From: Neglectibacter sp. X58
Lineage (GTDB): Bacteria; Bacillota; Clostridia; Oscillospirales; Acutalibacteraceae
Reading direction: 5' to 3'
Length of the DNA: 64,000 nt
Assembly: GCF_009936035.1 (NCBI RefSeq)
Contig: NZ_QWEO01000001.1
Coordinates: 62,001-126,000, forward strand
The notes beneath the pieces are model-generated. The model was not told where the DNA came from. It saw only the letters and a list, made by a program, of their open reading frames with translations, and did not search any database. The translations under genes were made by a program, and so were the position numbers. How positions within the stretch are numbered: the first letter of the stretch is position 1; every line of letters begins with the position of its first letter. Below, one piece after another: positions 6,207 through 60,303 of the stretch.

Positions 6207-6289
6207 CCGCCGGAGCCGGGAAAGGGCTTTGCCCTTTCCCGCGCCGCTTCGCGGCGGGTTCGGCCCTTAGGGCCGAACCGCCCCGGCGG
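6207..6289. repeat. Four-way-junction palindromic element, copy A
   Basis: The closing stem 6207-6216 pairs with 6280-6289 (9 of 10 pairs). It encloses three hairpins packed end to end: 6217-6241 (11-bp arms, loop TTT), 6242-6256 (6 bp, loop TTC) and 6257-6279 (10 bp, loop TTA). No base is left unpaired at the junction. It sits just after the phosphatase-family gene in the gap before polC. Confidence 0.7.
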
Positions 6290-21205: not shown

Positions 21206-21287
21206 CCCGCCCCGGCCGGCGCCGGACAGGCGGCGCCGCGCCGCGAAGCGGCGTGCGGGTTTTGCAAAAACCCGCAGCCGGGGCGGG
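21206..21287. repeat. Four-way-junction palindromic element, copy B (inside phage-like locus)
   Basis: The closing stem 21206-21216 pairs perfectly with 21277-21287 (11 bp). Three abutting hairpins lie inside: 21217-21238 (8 bp, 6-base loop), 21239-21253 (6 bp, loop GAA) and 21254-21276 (10 bp, loop GCA). No junction base is unpaired. It fills the gap between the portal and protease genes. Confidence 0.7.
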
Positions 21288-36405: not shown

Positions 36406-38136
36406 GTGAAAAAGGTATGTTCGCTCTTGCTCTTTATTTTGCTGCTGGCAGGGACGGCCTGCCTGCCACAGCCTGCCCAGGCAGCGGAGAAGAAGCTTAT
36501 TGCCATCACCTATGACGATGGCCCTTATGAAAATACAGAACGTCTGCTGGACGGGCTGAAGGAAAGAGGCGTACACGCCACCTTTTTCCTGGTAGGGAAA
36601 AAGATCCCCTCCTTTGAAAAAACGGTGGCCCGGATGTATGAGGAAGGGCACCAGGTGGCAAACCACAGCTACAGCCATGAAAACCTGACAGCTATCCCCT
36701 TGGAAGAGGTAAAGAAGCAGGTGCAGGACACAAACGCCCTGCTGGACAAAATCTGCGGCCCGGGTACAGACTATATGGTACGCCCGCCCTATGGCCATAT
36801 CAATGAGGGCGCGGCCCAGGCTGTGGGTTTGCCCTGCATCCTTTGGTCTTTTACGCCGAAAGACTGGGTGTATACGGACGCGGACGCCATAAAGCAGCAG
36901 ATAGTGGACGGTGTACATGAGGGCGATATCATTTTGCTGCATGATAAAAAGATGGGAACAGTGGAAGGCAGCCTTGCGGCTATTGACGAACTGCAGGCCC
37001 AGGGCTATGAGTTTGTCACAGTGCGGGAGCTTTTCCGCAGGCAGGGGCGCACAGCGGAAAATGCCAAGTGGTATACAGGAGGAAGCCTTGTGAAGGATTT
37101 TCAGGATCCCGGCCCTGTCCAAAGCCCCCAAATCTCCTATACAGTGGGGCAGGGCAGCCTGGAGGTGTCCATTTCCGGCCCTGCCGGGGTGCCCTTGTAT
37201 TATTCCGCAGACGGCTCTCCCTTAAACCAGCAGAGCCGCCTCTATACCGGGCCTTTCACGGTTACTGGGCCTTGTACCATCAGGGCCTGCTCCGCCTATA
37301 ACATGAACGGCAGCCGCAGTGAGACTGTGGAAGAGCAGATTGCCCAGGCCACAGCCTTCACCCCGGTGCTGCGCCTGGAAAACGGCCTGCTCGCTATGGA
37401 AGGGGTGCAGGAGGGCGCCCAGATCCACTATACCCTGATCGGGGCGCAGGACAGCGGCGGGGAAAAGCTTTATACCGGGCCTGTGGCGGTAAAGCCTGGG
37501 ACAGTGGCCGCGGCCTACGCGGCGGGAGAGGGTTTCTTTCCCAGCGGGACGGCCAAACTTGCCTATTCCCCTTTGGGAAATGTGTTCCGCGATGTTTTTC
37601 CCGCAGACTGGTATTTCGACTCTGTGGACAAGGTGGCGGCAGAGGGCATTATGCTGGGAACAGGCGAGGGCCGTTTTTTCCCTGCGGATCAGGTGACCAG
37701 GGGCCAGCTTGCCACTTTCCTGCACCGGGCCTCCCGGGAGGCCTCGGCTGTCTCCATCGGAGACAGCCATCCCTTTACTGATGTGCCGGAAGGGGAGTAT
37801 TACGCAGAAGCTGTGGCATGGGCCTATGAAAACGGCATTGTAACAGGGTATGGGGACGGCACCTTCCAGCCGGACAGGAAGGTGAGCCGGCAGGAGCTGG
37901 CGGCTGTTTTTGTCCGGTACCTTCGGCATAAAGGCGTGGTATCCGCCCAGCCAGAAGATGTAAGCGGCTACACAGACGCCGCCTTCATTGAAGAATGGGC
38001 TGTGGAGGCTGTGGGCGCCATGACGGCCCTGGAGCTTCTCAAGGGAGACGCAAACGGCGCTTTCCGGCCCAAGGCAGGGGCCTCCCGGGGGGAAACCGCC
38101 GCTGTGCTTGTGCGCATGGAAAAATATCTGGCATGA
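36406..38136 (+). CDS. Secreted polysaccharide deacetylase with S-layer-homology anchor, copy 2
   Basis: 576 residues with the same layout as the gene before it: signal peptide ending AQAA, NodB domain (TYDDGP, HSYSH, RPPYG, LLHD), two chitobiase-C-like repeats (YYSADGSPLNQQSRLYTGPF), three SLH repeats. The two proteins are clearly tandem duplicates but have diverged throughout, notably around the catalytic pocket (IPSFEKT for AARYEKT, FTPKDW for IDPQDW, HDKK for HDIH). GTG start with AAAGGAGG upstream; 51 bases separate the genes. Confidence 0.92.
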   Translation: MKKVCSLLLFILLLAGTACLPQPAQAAEKKLIAITYDDGPYENTERLLDGLKERGVHATFFLVGKKIPSFEKTVARMYEEGHQVANHSYSHENLTAIPLEEVKKQVQDTNALLDKICGPGTDYMVRPPYGHINEGAAQAVGLPCILWSFTPKDWVYTDADAIKQQIVDGVHEGDIILLHDKKMGTVEGSLAAIDELQAQGYEFVTVRELFRRQGRTAENAKWYTGGSLVKDFQDPGPVQSPQISYTVGQGSLEVSISGPAGVPLYYSADGSPLNQQSRLYTGPFTVTGPCTIRACSAYNMNGSRSETVEEQIAQATAFTPVLRLENGLLAMEGVQEGAQIHYTLIGAQDSGGEKLYTGPVAVKPGTVAAAYAAGEGFFPSGTAKLAYSPLGNVFRDVFPADWYFDSVDKVAAEGIMLGTGEGRFFPADQVTRGQLATFLHRASREASAVSIGDSHPFTDVPEGEYYAEAVAWAYENGIVTGYGDGTFQPDRKVSRQELAAVFVRYLRHKGVVSAQPEDVSGYTDAAFIEEWAVEAVGAMTALELLKGDANGAFRPKAGASRGETAAVLVRMEKYLA

Positions 38137-38164
38137 CGTTTAATTGCCTGGCAGTAAAAAAGAA

Positions 38165-38205
38165 CCCCCCTGTGTACCCGTTGTACATGGGGGGCCTTTT
38201 TATTT
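38165..38205. terminator. Terminator between deacetylase 2 and the oxidoreductase
   Basis: CCCCCC and GGGGGG arms with an inner GTAC/GTAC stem, flanked by AAAAAAG on one side and CCTTTTTATTTT on the other; it serves both convergent genes. Confidence 0.85.
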
Positions 38206-38216
38206 TGCGGAGGTTT

Positions 38217-39185
38217 TTAGAAGGTGTACTTTTTGCCGGTCTTGTAGGACTCATAAGCGCCCACCATGAACTTGGTGAGGGCCACAGCGTCTTCTATGCC
38301 GTTAGGGGCTTCGCCAATGCCGTTTACCGCGTCAATCCAGGCGTCGATGGGCATGGTGGACTTCTCGGGCAGATCTGTTTTCTGCACTAGCTTGTTGTCG
38401 GTTTCCTCGCAGCTATACTCCAGGATGTCATTATGTACCATCAGGGAGCCTTTGGTGCCGCTCATTTCCATTACATAGGGAATGCCGGTGGTGACAAAGC
38501 CAGTTTCAGAAACGCCGATGGTGCCGTTTGCAAACTCGATAACGGAAACCGCGTTTTCCTCTACAGGCTTGCCTGTAACCTCGGTGAACATGGAAACAAC
38601 AGACTTAGGCTCGCCCAAGAACCAGTTCAGGGTGTACATGGGATGTGCGCCCAGATCCATCATGGCGCCGCCGCCGGTCTGGGAAGCGTCATAGAAATGG
38701 GGCGGCAGCCAGCCGGCAGTGCTGCCGTTGTGATAGTTATGCACGCGGGCATAGGTGATTTGCCCCAGCTTGCCGCTGTCCACCAGCTCTTTGGCGGCTT
38801 TCAGGGTGGGCCAGGTTTTGTGGGGATAGGAGATAGTGAACTTCACGCCGCTTTCCTTGATAGCCTTGGCGATCTGCTCTGCTTCCTCGTTGGTAAAGGC
38901 CAGCACCTTTTCGGTGAAGATGTGCTTTTTGGCTTTGGCCGCAGCCATGAGCACCTCTGTGTGCTGGCAGGTGGCGGTGGTGATGGACACAGCGTCGATG
39001 GTTTCGTCATCCCAGATGGCCTGGAGATCCGGCTGGAAGGGAATGCCGAATTTCTCCGCCATGGCCTTGCCGCGCTCCTGGTCGTCATCCCACAGGCAGC
39101 AAAGTTCTGCCTTGGGATTCTCCTGGATAGCGGTGGTGTACTCCCGGGTGTGTACGTGCCATGCGCCGATAACTGCTACTTTCAT
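38217..39185 (-). CDS. Gfo/Idh/MocA family oxidoreductase
   Basis: 322 residues. N-terminal Rossmann domain (VAVIGAWHVHTREYTTAI; the dinucleotide loop reads GAWHVH rather than GxGxxG), the conserved EK motif in IFTEKVLAFTNEEAE (about residue 95) and a C-terminal alpha/beta domain with GGGAMMDLGAHPMYTLNWFLGEP. Likely a sugar or inositol dehydrogenase; substrate unknown. ATG 39185 is set by AAAGGATG upstream; the frame extends further without support. Divergent from the XRE-cupin gene. Confidence 0.87.
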   Translation of the reverse strand: MKVAVIGAWHVHTREYTTAIQENPKAELCCLWDDDQERGKAMAEKFGIPFQPDLQAIWDDETIDAVSITTATCQHTEVLMAAAKAKKHIFTEKVLAFTNEEAEQIAKAIKESGVKFTISYPHKTWPTLKAAKELVDSGKLGQITYARVHNYHNGSTAGWLPPHFYDASQTGGGAMMDLGAHPMYTLNWFLGEPKSVVSMFTEVTGKPVEENAVSVIEFANGTIGVSETGFVTTGIPYVMEMSGTKGSLMVHNDILEYSCEETDNKLVQKTDLPEKSTMPIDAWIDAVNGIGEAPNGIEDAVALTKFMVGAYESYKTGKKYTF

Positions 39186-39475
39186 GCGTAATACATCCTT
39201 TCTTTGACTGTAAATGGACAATGAGAGGGAGGCGGGAACATATCCATGCCCTTTCCCGTCTCTGGCAGAGAGACGGCTTTCCCATGTCCTGTACGTCAAC
39301 AGTGTACACTACCTGGAGGAAAAGTGCAAGGGGGTTTGGGAAGATTATTTTTTGAACAGGGAAAAGGGGAGGCGAAATCTTTGGGCAGGCTTCCCTCTGG
39401 CGCGGACGGTATTGACGGGCGGCGCTTCCAAGTGGTATAATTTTTCAAAATCCACATGAAAAGGAGCGTGGCGAC
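39186..39475. other. Divergent intergenic region, oxidoreductase / XRE-cupin
   Basis: 290 bases without a credible gene. It contains a 10-bp palindrome AGTGTACACT near 39299-39308, a possible operator for the oxidoreductase gene, and the forward promoter at 39412-39441. Confidence 0.5.
39412..39441 (+). promoter_or_regulatory. Promoter of the XRE-cupin gene
   Basis: TTGACG (39412-39417) and a perfect TATAAT (39436-39441) with an 18-base spacer, about 35 bases before the GTG start. Confidence 0.75.
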
Positions 39476-40024
39476 GTGAGCGGCATCAATGAGATAGGCC
39501 CCCGGCTGCGGGAGCTGCGGGAAGCGAGCGACTACACAGCAGAGCAGCTTGCCCGGGAGCTGCACCTGGATCCGGCAGTGTATCAGGGCTATGAAGAGGA
39601 CGGGCGGGATATCCCCATCAGCGTGATATATGAGATAGCAAACAAATTTAAGGTGGACTTTACAGAGATTGCCACAGGCGTGCCGGCCCGCCTGGATACA
39701 TACCATATTGTGCGCCGGGGCCAGGGCCGGGTGGTGAACCGCAACCCGGAGTACCATTTTGAGGACTTGGCCTTCCGGTACGCGGATAAAATCATGCAGC
39801 CGCTGCTGGTAACGCTGGAGCCTACCGACGAGGCGGCAAAGCTTATCACCCACCCGGGCCAGGAGTTTAACCTGGTGCTGGAGGGCGTTGTGGTGGTGTG
39901 CATAGGGGAGAAGGAGTTTGAGCTGAAGGCTGGGGATTCCATTTATTTTAATCCCACCCTGCCCCATGGGCAGCGCTGCGGCGGCAGCGGGAAGGCCAGG
40001 TTTGTCACAGTTATTACAGAGTGA
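39476..40024 (+). CDS. XRE-family regulator with C-terminal cupin domain
   Basis: 182 residues. Helix-turn-helix at about 8-62 (LRELREASDYTAEQLARELHL, ISVIYEIANKFKVD) and a cupin sensor at about 105-178 (HPGQEFNLVLEGVVVVCIGEKEFEL, GDSIYFNPTLPHGQR). GTG start preceded by AAAAGGAG. The pairing with a downstream acyl-CoA synthetase is common in gut Clostridia and suggests that it controls that gene in response to a small acid or its CoA ester. Confidence 0.9.
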   Translation: MSGINEIGPRLRELREASDYTAEQLARELHLDPAVYQGYEEDGRDIPISVIYEIANKFKVDFTEIATGVPARLDTYHIVRRGQGRVVNRNPEYHFEDLAFRYADKIMQPLLVTLEPTDEAAKLITHPGQEFNLVLEGVVVVCIGEKEFELKAGDSIYFNPTLPHGQRCGGSGKARFVTVITE

Positions 40025-40035
40025 GCACGCCCCCG

Positions 40036-40110
40036 GCCCGCAAACCGGGAGGCGGAGCCTCCCGCGCCCGGCTTTGCCGGGCGGCCTGTCCTGGACAGGC
40101 GTTTGCGGGC
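40036..40110. repeat. Four-way-junction palindromic element, copy C
   Basis: The closing stem 40036-40045 pairs perfectly with 40101-40110 (10 bp). It encloses hairpins 40046-40064 (8 bp, loop GGA), 40065-40083 (8 bp, loop TTT) and 40084-40100 (7 bp, loop CTG). Every base from 40036 to 40110 is either paired or in a 3-base loop. It lies between the regulator and synthetase genes. Confidence 0.75.
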
Positions 40111-40153
40111 TGGGGCTGCCGGCTCAATGCCCCTACAGGAAAGGATGAAGAAA

Positions 40154-41833
40154 ATGGACTATCTCTTGCAAAAATATATGCCCCGCATAGACTTTGACAG
40201 CTATGAGGACTTCCGGGCAAACTATAAAATCAATGTGCCGGAGGACTTTAACTTCGGCTTTGACGTGGTGGACGCCTGGGCGCAGGCAGAGCCGGAGAAA
40301 AGGGCGCTGGTGTGGTGCGACGAGTCCGGGGAAGAGAAGGTGTTTACCTTTACGGACATCATGAAGCTTTCTGCCCGGGCGGCAAACTTTTTCCGCGCCC
40401 AGGGGGTGAAAAAAGGCTCTGTGGTCATGCTCATCCTCCGCCGCCGGTGGGAATACTGGATATGTGCCGCGGCCCTCCACAAGCTGGGCGCTGTGCTGAT
40501 TCCCGGCACCCTGCAGCTTACGAAAAAGGATATCGTATACCGGGGCAACGCCGCGAAAATACATGGCATTGTCTGCGTAAACGATCCCTTTGTCATTTCC
40601 CAGGTGGAAGCGGCTCAGGGGGAGATTCCCAGCCTGCAAATGAAAGCCCTGGCGGCGGAGAGCCGGGAAGGGTGGCTGAACCTGGACGAGAAAATCATGG
40701 GGTATCCGGATGAATTTCCCCGGCCTTCAGGGGAAGAGGCCACCCGCTGGGACGATATCATGCTGGTATATTTCACCTCCGGCACCACGGGAATGCCCAA
40801 AATGGTGCAGCACAACTTTGCCCACCCCTTGGGCCACGTGACCACCGCCCGTTACTGGCAGTGCGTGGAGGAAAACAAGCTCCACATGAGCGTGTCCGAC
40901 TCCGGCTGGGCCAAGTTCGGCTGGGGGAAAATTTACGGCCAGTGGCTGTGCGGGGCTACGGTTTTCTGTTATGACATGCTGGGAAAATTCGAGCCTGCCC
41001 GCCTGCTCTCGCACCTGGAAAAATACAAGGTGACTACCTTCTGCGCGCCGCCCACTATGTTCCGGTTTATGCTTCAGGAGGATGTGTCCCGGTATGACCT
41101 GTCCTCCATCCACCACTGCGCCACTGCCGGGGAGCCTTTAAACCCGGAAGTGGTGAAAAAGTGGAAGGAGCTTACGGGCCTGCAAATTTACGAGGGCTTC
41201 GGCCAGAGCGAAGGCCCTGTGCTGCTGGCAAACTTCAAGTGGATACCCCCCATCCCCGGCTCTACCGGAAAGCCCAATCCCCTGTATGACATGCAGCTAG
41301 TGGACAGGGAGGGGAATCTCTGCGAGGACGGCGAGGAGGGCACCATCGCCATTATGGACGTAAAAAGCAGGCCTCCGGTGGGCCTCTTTACAGGCTATTT
41401 CCAGAATCCTGCCATGACAGAGGAAAAGCTGGGCGGCGATTACTACGATACCGGAGACGTGGCCTGGCGGGACAGCGACGGCTATTTCTGGTTTGTGGGG
41501 CGCAATGACGATGTTATCAAGTGCTCGGGATACCGCATCGGGCCTTTCGAGGTGGAGTCTGCCCTGGTGGAGCACCCGGCTGTGGTGGAATGCGCCATTA
41601 CAGGCGCGCCGGATCCTATCCGGGGCCAAGTGGTGAAGGCTACCATTGTGCTGGCAAGGGGCTATGAAGGTACGCCGGAACTGACAAAGGAGCTGCAAGC
41701 TTATGTGAAAAAGGCCACAGCCCCTTATAAGTATCCCCGGATCATTGAATATGTGGCAGAGCTGCCCAAGACCCTGGGGGGGAAAATCAAGCGTGCCCAA
41801 ATCCGGCAGATGGATACCGCCGGGAAGCCCTAG
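40154..41833 (+). CDS. Acyl-CoA synthetase (medium-chain/aryl type, AMP-forming)
   Basis: 559 residues of the adenylate-forming family. P-loop-like VYFTSGTTGMPKMVQH (A3), YEGFGQSEG (A5), YYDTGDVAWRDSDGYFWFVGRNDDVIKCSGYRIGPFEVE (A7-A8, given in part: GDVAWRDSDGYF, GRNDDVIK) and the catalytic lysine in LPKTLGGKIKRAQIR (A10). Closest in style to medium-chain acyl-CoA synthetases. ATG 40154 has AGGAAAGG ten bases upstream. Convergent with a small lipoprotein gene; stop codons overlap. Confidence 0.88.
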   Translation: MDYLLQKYMPRIDFDSYEDFRANYKINVPEDFNFGFDVVDAWAQAEPEKRALVWCDESGEEKVFTFTDIMKLSARAANFFRAQGVKKGSVVMLILRRRWEYWICAAALHKLGAVLIPGTLQLTKKDIVYRGNAAKIHGIVCVNDPFVISQVEAAQGEIPSLQMKALAAESREGWLNLDEKIMGYPDEFPRPSGEEATRWDDIMLVYFTSGTTGMPKMVQHNFAHPLGHVTTARYWQCVEENKLHMSVSDSGWAKFGWGKIYGQWLCGATVFCYDMLGKFEPARLLSHLEKYKVTTFCAPPTMFRFMLQEDVSRYDLSSIHHCATAGEPLNPEVVKKWKELTGLQIYEGFGQSEGPVLLANFKWIPPIPGSTGKPNPLYDMQLVDREGNLCEDGEEGTIAIMDVKSRPPVGLFTGYFQNPAMTEEKLGGDYYDTGDVAWRDSDGYFWFVGRNDDVIKCSGYRIGPFEVESALVEHPAVVECAITGAPDPIRGQVVKATIVLARGYEGTPELTKELQAYVKKATAPYKYPRIIEYVAELPKTLGGKIKRAQIRQMDTAGKP

Positions 41834-41973
41834 ATACAGCCGTCGGGCCTGTGGGACACCGCTGACACCCTTCTCAGGCCTGGATCCACAGGCCCTGTGG
41901 TGGTCACGGCGGCGCAGCCGGTGAGATAAAGGGCCAGCAGGCAGAGGAGAAGCCAGTATACAGTTTTTTTCAT
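41830..41973 (-). CDS. Small lipoprotein (47 residues)
   Basis: MKKTVYWLLLCLLALYLTGC is a type II signal peptide with lipobox LTGC; the mature part is only about 27 residues (AAVTTTGPVDPGLRRV...). I chose ATG 41973 because the coding potential and the signal begin there. It is preceded by a sequence resembling the conserved leader seen before hisE and iorA. Function unknown; the overlap with the synthetase stop is 4 bases. Confidence 0.6.
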   Translation of the reverse strand: MKKTVYWLLLCLLALYLTGCAAVTTTGPVDPGLRRVSAVSHRPDGCI

Positions 41974-42047
41974 GGGAATCGCCATGGGGGTACAAAAGCC
42001 ATGAAAAAGCGGCGTTTTGCGCCCCGCATCTTTCCTTTCCTTCGTGT
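41974..42047 (-). repeat. Divergent copy of the conserved leader element (before lipoprotein)
   Basis: Read on the minus strand: ACGAAGGAAAGGAAAG, then GGGGCGCAAAACG, TTTTTCATGGCTTTTG and CATGGCGATT just before the ATG. The same blocks occur in the same order before hisE (ACGAAGAAAGGAA, GGGCACGAAAGG, TTTTTACATAGCTTTTTG, CATGGCGATT). A GCCG/TGGC stem replaces the second stem of the other copies. Confidence 0.45.
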
Positions 42048-55928: not shown

Positions 55929-56204
55929 ATGAACAAGTCTGAACTGATCGCGGATGTCGCCCTGCGGGCAGACATCACCAAGAAAGATGCTGACGCCGCT
56001 GTAAACGCTGTGATTGACTCCATTACCAATGCTCTGGAAAAGGGTGACAAGGTGCAGTTGGTGGGCTTTGGCACCTTTGAGGTGCGTACCCGCGGCGCCC
56101 GTACCGGGCGCAACCCCCGTAACAACGAGGAGATCAATATTCCTGAATCCAAGGCCCCTGCCTTTAAGGCTGGCAAGGCTTTGAAGGATGTTGTGAATAA
56201 GTAG
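55929..56204 (+). CDS. hup: HU family DNA-binding protein
   Basis: 91 residues: [35 protein letters not shown] and the DNA-gripping arm [30 protein letters not shown]. Chromosome-compacting dimer. TTGGAGG precedes the ATG; its 148-base leader includes a GGCCTGC/GCAGGCC hairpin at about 55874-55899. Confidence 0.96.
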
Positions 56205-56280
56205 CTTTGTGAGTATCCAGCGGGCCCGGGGCGTATCCGGGCCTGTTTTTGTTTCCGGACAGGGAGAAAGCGGCAGCGCT

Positions 56281-56365
56281 CCCGCCCGCAAACGCCCGGC
56301 TTCGCCGGGCCGGCAAGGCAAAGCCCTGCCGCCCGGGGCTTTTGGCCCCGGGGGTTGCGGGCGGG
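56281..56365. repeat. Four-way-junction palindromic element, copy D
   Basis: The closing stem 56281-56293 pairs with 56353-56365 (12 of 13). Abutting hairpins: 56294-56310 (7 bp, loop TTC), 56311-56331 (9 positions with one mismatch, loop AAA), 56332-56352 (9 bp including one G-U, loop TTT). No unpaired junction base. It lies between hup and rqcP. Confidence 0.7.
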
Positions 56366-56407
56366 GCAGGCTGCTTCTTAAAACGCGCAGAGAAGGAGGA
56401 AAAACGT

Positions 56408-59533: not shown

Positions 59534-59562
59534 TTGCATTTTTTTAGGTATTGTGCTACAAT
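59534..59562 (+). promoter_or_regulatory. Promoter of hpf
   Basis: TTGCAT (59534-59539), 17 bases, TACAAT (59557-59562), about 65 bases before the ATG. Confidence 0.75.
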
Positions 59563-59626
59563 AGAATTACAAAAAACCGGCTACGGTGCTTTTGGAAAAA
59601 TCAGGAGAAAGAAAGGTGGCCATTCC

Positions 59627-60154
59627 ATGAAGATCACGATTGTGGGGAGAAAAGTCAATCTGCGCAGCAATTTTAAAGAGCTGGTGGAAAAAAAGCTTTC
59701 CAAGTTTGACAGGATCTTTGACGATGACGCCGAAGCGGTGGTCACCGTGACGGTGGAGCGCAACCGCCAGACCGTGGAGATCACCATCAAACAGCGGGGC
59801 ATGATCTGCCGCGCCGAGGATACCGCCATAGAGATGAACGAGGCGCTGGATCACGTGGTTGCCGCTTTGGGCAAGCAGATCCGCCGCAACAAGACAAGGC
59901 TTGAGAAATCTAAAAAGATGAACCCCGGCATTGTCATTGCCGATGATTACTATGACGAGCCTGACGAGGAGATTAAAATTACCCGCAGCAAGTCCTTCTT
60001 CGTCAAGGTGATGTCCCCGGAGGAGGCGGTTATGCAGATGAACATGCTGGGCCACGAGTTCTTCATGTTCCGCAACGACGAGTCCGGCGAAATCAATGTG
60101 GTCTACCGCCGCAGGGATGGGGACTACGGCCTGCTGGTGCCGGAAGGGAAGTAA
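59627..60154 (+). CDS. hpf: Ribosome hibernation promoting factor, long form
   Basis: 175 residues: an N-terminal YfiA-type domain (MKITIVGRKVNLRSNFKELVEKKLSKF, AVVTVTVERNRQTVEITI) and the C-terminal dimerisation domain (VKVMSPEEAVMQMNMLGHEFFMFRNDESGEINVVYRRRDG, shortened here as MSPEEAVMQMNMLGH) that joins two ribosomes into 100S particles. AAAGGTGG lies before ATG 59627. Single gene with its own promoter. Confidence 0.95.
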   Translation: MKITIVGRKVNLRSNFKELVEKKLSKFDRIFDDDAEAVVTVTVERNRQTVEITIKQRGMICRAEDTAIEMNEALDHVVAALGKQIRRNKTRLEKSKKMNPGIVIADDYYDEPDEEIKITRSKSFFVKVMSPEEAVMQMNMLGHEFFMFRNDESGEINVVYRRRDGDYGLLVPEGK

Positions 60155-60253
60155 TAGTTAACACAGCTCAAAAGAGGTACGCCTCTTTTGAGCCAGGCGG
60201 CAAAGCCGCCCAGCTTTAAAATCGGATGTACCGATTTTAAAGTGTGTTTACTA
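60155..60253. repeat. Three hairpins with a closing stem, A/T-rich variant
   Basis: TAGTTAACAC (60155-60164) pairs with GTGTTTACTA (60244-60253) at 9 of 10 positions. Inside: 60166-60193 (12 bp, loop TACG), 60196-60210 (6 bp, loop AAA) and 60214-60242 (12 bp, loop ATGTA). One to three bases separate the stems. It starts directly after the hpf stop codon. Confidence 0.6.
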
Positions 60254-60303
60254 TAACCCCTTTTCCCGGCAGGCGGAAGCTTTTTCGCGCGTATACGTCC
60301 AGT

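Follow-up and report, generated by a model that had tools for sequence, protein, structure and literature searches.

Gut bacteria related to Acutalibacter carry dozens of inserts of roughly 100 bases, which comparative evidence indicates to be mobile and whose sequence changes while a closed four-armed fold, with almost every base paired, is kept. Shape therefore seems to matter more than sequence. The elements are best explained as non-autonomous, MITE-like mobile DNA (a probability of roughly 0.78). They were examined starting from a window of 64,000 nucleotides of Neglectibacter sp. X58 (contig NZ_QWEO01000001.1, positions 62,001 to 126,000). Genomes are designated here by G numbers (G000 is the genome of the window), their contigs by C numbers and individual loci by L numbers. 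Among the nearest related loci are ones from bacterium D16-76, Candidatus Acutalibacter and Neglectibacter.

Four-Way Folds in the Window and in Related Genomes

The original prediction described a fully packed four-way junction at 40036-40110 with three further copies, and this observation is confirmed. Folding of 40036-40110 gives exactly the described structure, with hairpins of 8, 8 and 7 bp, three-base loops and no unpaired base at the junction. As RNA the minimum free energy is -62 kcal/mol (z -7.8), and 0 of 200 dinucleotide shuffles were as good; as DNA z is -9.0. The closing stem is longer than the 10 bp first given. It comprises 15 bp (40031-40115), and a bulged extension with unpaired bases reaches 40025-40119. 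The other three copies, at 6207-6289, 21206-21287 and 56278-56367, fold on the same plan (DNA z -6.7 to -7.5) with a few imperfections, namely unpaired bases in the closing stems of the 6207 and 56278-56367 copies and a six-base loop in 21206. The original prediction also held that the copies share almost no sequence. This is true of 6207 and 21206, but the focal copy and that at 56278-56367 share GCCCGCAAAC in the closing stem. The latter copy lies between a small gene that, from inspection of its sequence only, looks like HU (55929-56204) and the next reading frame, just after a terminator-like stretch.

Because the unrelated arms were judged unlikely to be aligned by MAFFT, a purpose-built fold scanner was used in place of a covariance model. 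In a local-fold scan of the window (ViennaRNA, DNA parameters, span 130) the four copies rank first to fourth, at -47.9, -47.6, -45.2 and -43.7 kcal/mol. The next natural closed multi-branch fold is -16.9, and the best fold in three shuffled windows is -22.1. A fifth copy, absent from the original prediction, lies at 60153-60255 (G000:C89:122154-122254; DNA MFE -38.2, three hairpins). Its left end overlaps the stop codon of an S30AE-family gene (59534-60154).

In 831 kb of G000 (the window, most of contig C89, all of C102 and parts of other contigs) 18 folds reach -30, and all 18 have exactly three hairpins; some of these stretches were chosen because they held copies, and hence the density is not a genome average. 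The same is true of 7 of 7 folds in 400 kb of G027 and 2 of 2 in 60 kb of G004, where a third element was found by another scanner. In contrast, none reaches -30 in 400 kb of G022, 180 kb of G008, 80 kb of G007, 40 kb of G001 and 20 kb each of G005 and G010. The counts are lower bounds, since the strict scan misses both L237:10918-11026, found in another scan, and the fifth copy of the window. Outside that set, one strong two-hairpin fold (-37.1) exists in G004. Among 80 named loci, four (L009, L016, L019 and L048) hold three-hairpin folds at or below -30, so the plan is not confined to the genome of the window. That shuffled sequence might fold as tightly had been named beforehand as a way for the observation to fail. 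Shuffling the local sequence around each of five copies 200 times gave no three-hairpin fold at or below -30 (best -22.3), and 2.49 Mb of 500-base block shuffles gave none.

Element Families and Compensatory Change

The copies fall into a GC-rich family A, an AT-rich family B, and some assigned to neither. In 23 GC-rich elements picked for inspection, 855 pairs are Watson-Crick, 6 are G-T and 9 single mismatches occur; 49 of 69 hairpin loops have three bases.

Family A, which includes the focal element and 56278-56367, keeps GCCCGCAAAC/GTTTGCGGGC next to the junction, while the hairpins differ strongly between copies. Fifteen copies were compared, 11 from G000 and 4 from G027, each turned to the orientation of greatest similarity. 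The seven junction-nearest positions of each hairpin were examined, with copies with short arms dropped at outer positions (n 9 to 15). All 21 positions pair more often than the shuffled mean, and 17 of 21 pair more often than any of 500 shuffles. The exceptions are the two nearly invariant first positions of hairpins 2 and 3 and the two outer positions of hairpin 2. Pair changes include many G-C to C-G swaps. The A sequence pattern matches 7 of 29 genus genomes. In G000 9 of 10 hits and in G027 4 of 4 are four-way elements, while the single hits in G001, G013, G014, G026 and G008 look unstructured by eye; the reversed control pattern has 0 hits in G000 but 1-2 in five other genomes. The GC-rich copies at 6207 and 21206, and several in G027 and G004, follow the plan without the CGCAAAC core and share no common terminal sequence.

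Family B elements are about 100-117 bases long, with ends TATAGTNAACGCA, hairpin 1 beginning GTTCAAAAGAGG, a variable hairpin 2 and hairpin 3 beginning CTTGAAAATCGG. The copy at 60153-60255 belongs to this family. In 18 aligned copies from G000, G010 and G027, 96.2% of 738 cells pair and 11 of 41 pairs carry two-sided changes (23 cells). None of 500 shuffles reaches any of the five measures used, and slid structures have only 1-2 such pairs. The pattern ATAGTNAACRN{68,98}YGTTNACTAT hits 10 of 29 genus genomes (G020 33, G000 21, G014 13, G027 13, G005 8, G010 5, G026 3, G001 2, G017 2, G022 1), counts that include some degenerate copies without a full arm; the reversed pattern has no hit in any of the 29. 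In a draw of 150 genomes from the family, which included few of the genus, 3 matched a B copy by DNA similarity: G000, G010 and one short hit in G171. A one-hairpin derivative of B, apparently a fusion of the outer halves of hairpins 3 and 1, occurs at L350 (G000:C138:86887-86941).

B elements are also found in two IMG/VR viral contigs (L419 and L420), which are identical over the stretch compared. There, another palindromic repeat with ends like GGGCTTGTTTGAAAA is nested inside hairpin 2, and this repeat also lies beside a degenerate B copy in G005 (L381). Twenty viral hits of the A pattern fold weakly (-12 to -26) and look like chance.

The arms of B show runs of adjacent two-sided changes, for example in the third hairpin of L214. 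In 62 oriented B copies that fit a regular expression, hairpin centres occur together with their reverse complements: four word pairs in hairpin 1, one in hairpin 2 and four in hairpin 3, with none for reversed or complemented words. This control is generous, because paired word ends favour reverse complements, and two of the hairpin-3 pairs differ by only two bases. The clearest cases are the AGAAT/ATTCT and AGGAT/ATCCT centres of hairpin 1. Inverted centres are what template switching inside hairpins would leave, and hint at repair of the arms by this route; template switching has been argued to create and maintain hairpin stems (PMC8794818).

Presence and Absence at Orthologous Sites

The focal element lies between a cupin/HTH gene and an AMP-binding enzyme gene (Pfam). 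Of 100 loci compared, 64 gave distinct two-flank gaps, including that of the window, although some of these align only in part. Only the gap of the window holds an element. The other gaps run from about 10 to 331 nt, and those of the close relatives L001 and L002 are 25 and 31. The gap at 21206 was compared in 23 loci. Only 2 of the 23, the window and G026, hold four-way elements there, of unrelated sequence, and G005 has a degenerate B copy. For family A the evidence of movement consists of gap comparisons and copy number, with no precise empty site.

A precise empty site is available for a B-like element. In G020, two paralogous genes, RepA-like by our reading of their sequence alone and about 85% alike at the flanks, both carry an identical 98-nt B-like element at the same place (L305 2263-2360 and G020:C6:96020-96117). 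Homologues read out in G018, G010, G027 and G002 have one nucleotide there. Two identical inserts at one place may mean targeting or gene conversion; their shared right flank favours conversion. B copies have TA/TA borders in 32 of the 42 that fit a regular expression, which would fit a TA target duplication but may belong to the repeat, and the empty site shows no clean TA duplication. No duplication is discernible for A.

Family A flanks suggest a further possibility. Flanks of a copy pair with each other more than with flanks of other copies (15.6 against 12.9, permutation p 0.003, 15 copies). In L195, L140 and L187 a further palindrome (for example AAAAGGC..GCCTTTT) lies outside the closing stem, as if the element sat in the loop of an older hairpin. 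No empty hairpin site was found, so insertion into hairpin or terminator loops stays an idea.

Nature of the Elements

The terminal repeats pair as the closing stem and three hairpins fill everything between, so that the whole element is one fully paired four-way junction. The interpretation of the original prediction is partly supported. That structure is what is kept is supported by the covariation in both families, and a mobile palindrome is supported by the presence/absence and the interrupted gene. The choice between an extruded cruciform and a branched RNA is not decided by the pairs: rare G-T pairs and three-base loops in the GC-rich copies lean to DNA, while in 31 B copies fitting a regular expression G-T/T-G pairs slightly exceed A-C/C-A pairs (29 against 16, p 0.07), which leans weakly to RNA. 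The dispersed copies, their presence/absence between relatives, the interrupted gene and the strong compensatory covariation come directly from the analysis. The mechanism is inferred. In this view an enzyme supplied in trans would recognise the folded strand or extruded cross (or only its ends), so copies that keep the fold would keep moving, and template switching inside hairpins during replication would repair mismatches in one step and let the arms drift while pairing stays nearly perfect.

Bacterial MITEs (miniature inverted-repeat transposable elements) resemble these elements in size (about 70-117 bases here), terminal inverted repeats (found in A and in B), absence of a gene, dispersed and variable copies, and location, intergenic and in one case inside a gene. 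Here, however, the whole element is one closed four-way junction kept by compensatory change, sequence-unrelated families share the plan, and no autonomous partner was found; in 3-kb loci around 30 of the 37 exact B-end matches in G000 no longer version was seen. REP/BIME palindromes with RAYT transposases (PMC2817692, PMC3733652) are also short and extragenic, often after stop codons, but REPs are single hairpins of 20-40 bp that share sequence, in contrast to three hairpins plus a closing stem with divergent arms. Mitochondrial repetitive hairpin-forming elements of sponges (PMC2800124) are invading repeats, structurally and compositionally divergent and scattered in distribution. Double-hairpin elements of Allomyces are similar. 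The likeness is in kind only; these occur in organelle genomes and have one or two hairpins, not a closed four-way junction. The original prediction knew no named family with this plan. Rfam agrees: the window has 0 matches, the focal region only weak hits far below the gathering thresholds, and loci L256, L113, L116 and L200 only two tRNAs. No known RNA or tRNA was found, and plasmid records had no match to 36406-42000. Literature searches, including one combining miniature inverted repeats, four-way junctions and bacteria, showed no bacterial element with this plan, although with most subscription papers outside their coverage this is weak evidence of novelty.

Alternative Explanations

No mobilising enzyme was identified among the transposases examined. 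The best surviving alternative, still unlikely, is that family B is an ordinary MITE of an IS630/Tc1-type DDE transposase with TA target duplication, its inner hairpins being incidental. The TA/TA borders would fit, and DDE_3 was found in 6 of 10 B-positive against 1 of 19 B-negative genus genomes (p 0.003, uncorrected for kinship or for testing two enzymes). However, DDE_3 was not found in G000, G027, G014 or G026, which have 21, 13, 13 and 3 B hits, while G022, with only one B hit, has many near-identical IS630-type copies (16 DDE_3 hits on contig C1; L441, L442). The shared left boundary of two of these G022 copies does not look like the B end. No flanking pair of B ends was seen in the four short stretches scanned, which did not reach the right ends; one isolated TAGTCAAC occurs in L443. 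Incidental hairpins would not covary.

A functional RNA, for example a transcribed 3'-end or intercistronic stabiliser, processing or attenuation signal that spreads little and whose branched RNA would be what selection keeps, is also doubtful. In its favour are the strong covariation, the slight G-T excess in B, and the position of 10 of 19 GC-rich copies within 25 nt of a neighbouring stop codon, by our reading of greedy longest-ORF calls (the focal one corrected by hand). Against it are presence/absence at orthologous gaps, insertion inside a gene, B hits from 0 to 33 per genome within a genus, the rarity of G-T pairs in GC-rich copies, mostly three-base loops and the lack of an Rfam family.

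Equally doubtful are REP-like palindromes or hairpin DNA moved as single strands by a Y1 (IS200/RAYT-type) transposase. Y1_Tnp was found in 6 of 10 B-positive against 3 of 19 B-negative genus genomes (p 0.03, likewise uncorrected), and a B-like element lies about 360 nt downstream of a Y1 gene in L305. Of the 18 Y1 loci scanned, however, only L305 held a four-way element, and there it sits in the next gene. G004, given as 97% complete, has three elements in 60 kb but no Y1 hit. Chance folding of GC-rich spacers, suggested only by the composition of family A and the copies in neither family, is refuted by the shuffles, by the 400 kb of G022 and 180 kb of G008 without such folds, and by the same folding of AT-rich family B.

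Implications

A more far-reaching possibility, which we consider unlikely on present evidence, is a class of bacterial mobile element defined by shape. A junction-recognising enzyme would mobilise any segment that folds into a fully paired four-way junction, so that sequence-unrelated families would share one machinery and evolve fast by template switching inside their hairpins. Recognition of the junction itself is inferred from the plan being common to such families. Mobile elements are normally recognised by the sequence of their ends. Here families of unrelated sequence keep the same closed four-armed shape, with extreme compensatory change between copies in one genome. This makes it testable whether a DNA shape can be the recognised part of a mobile element, and gives many independent hairpins in which to measure replication template switching. 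It also warns that strong covariation need not mean a functional RNA.
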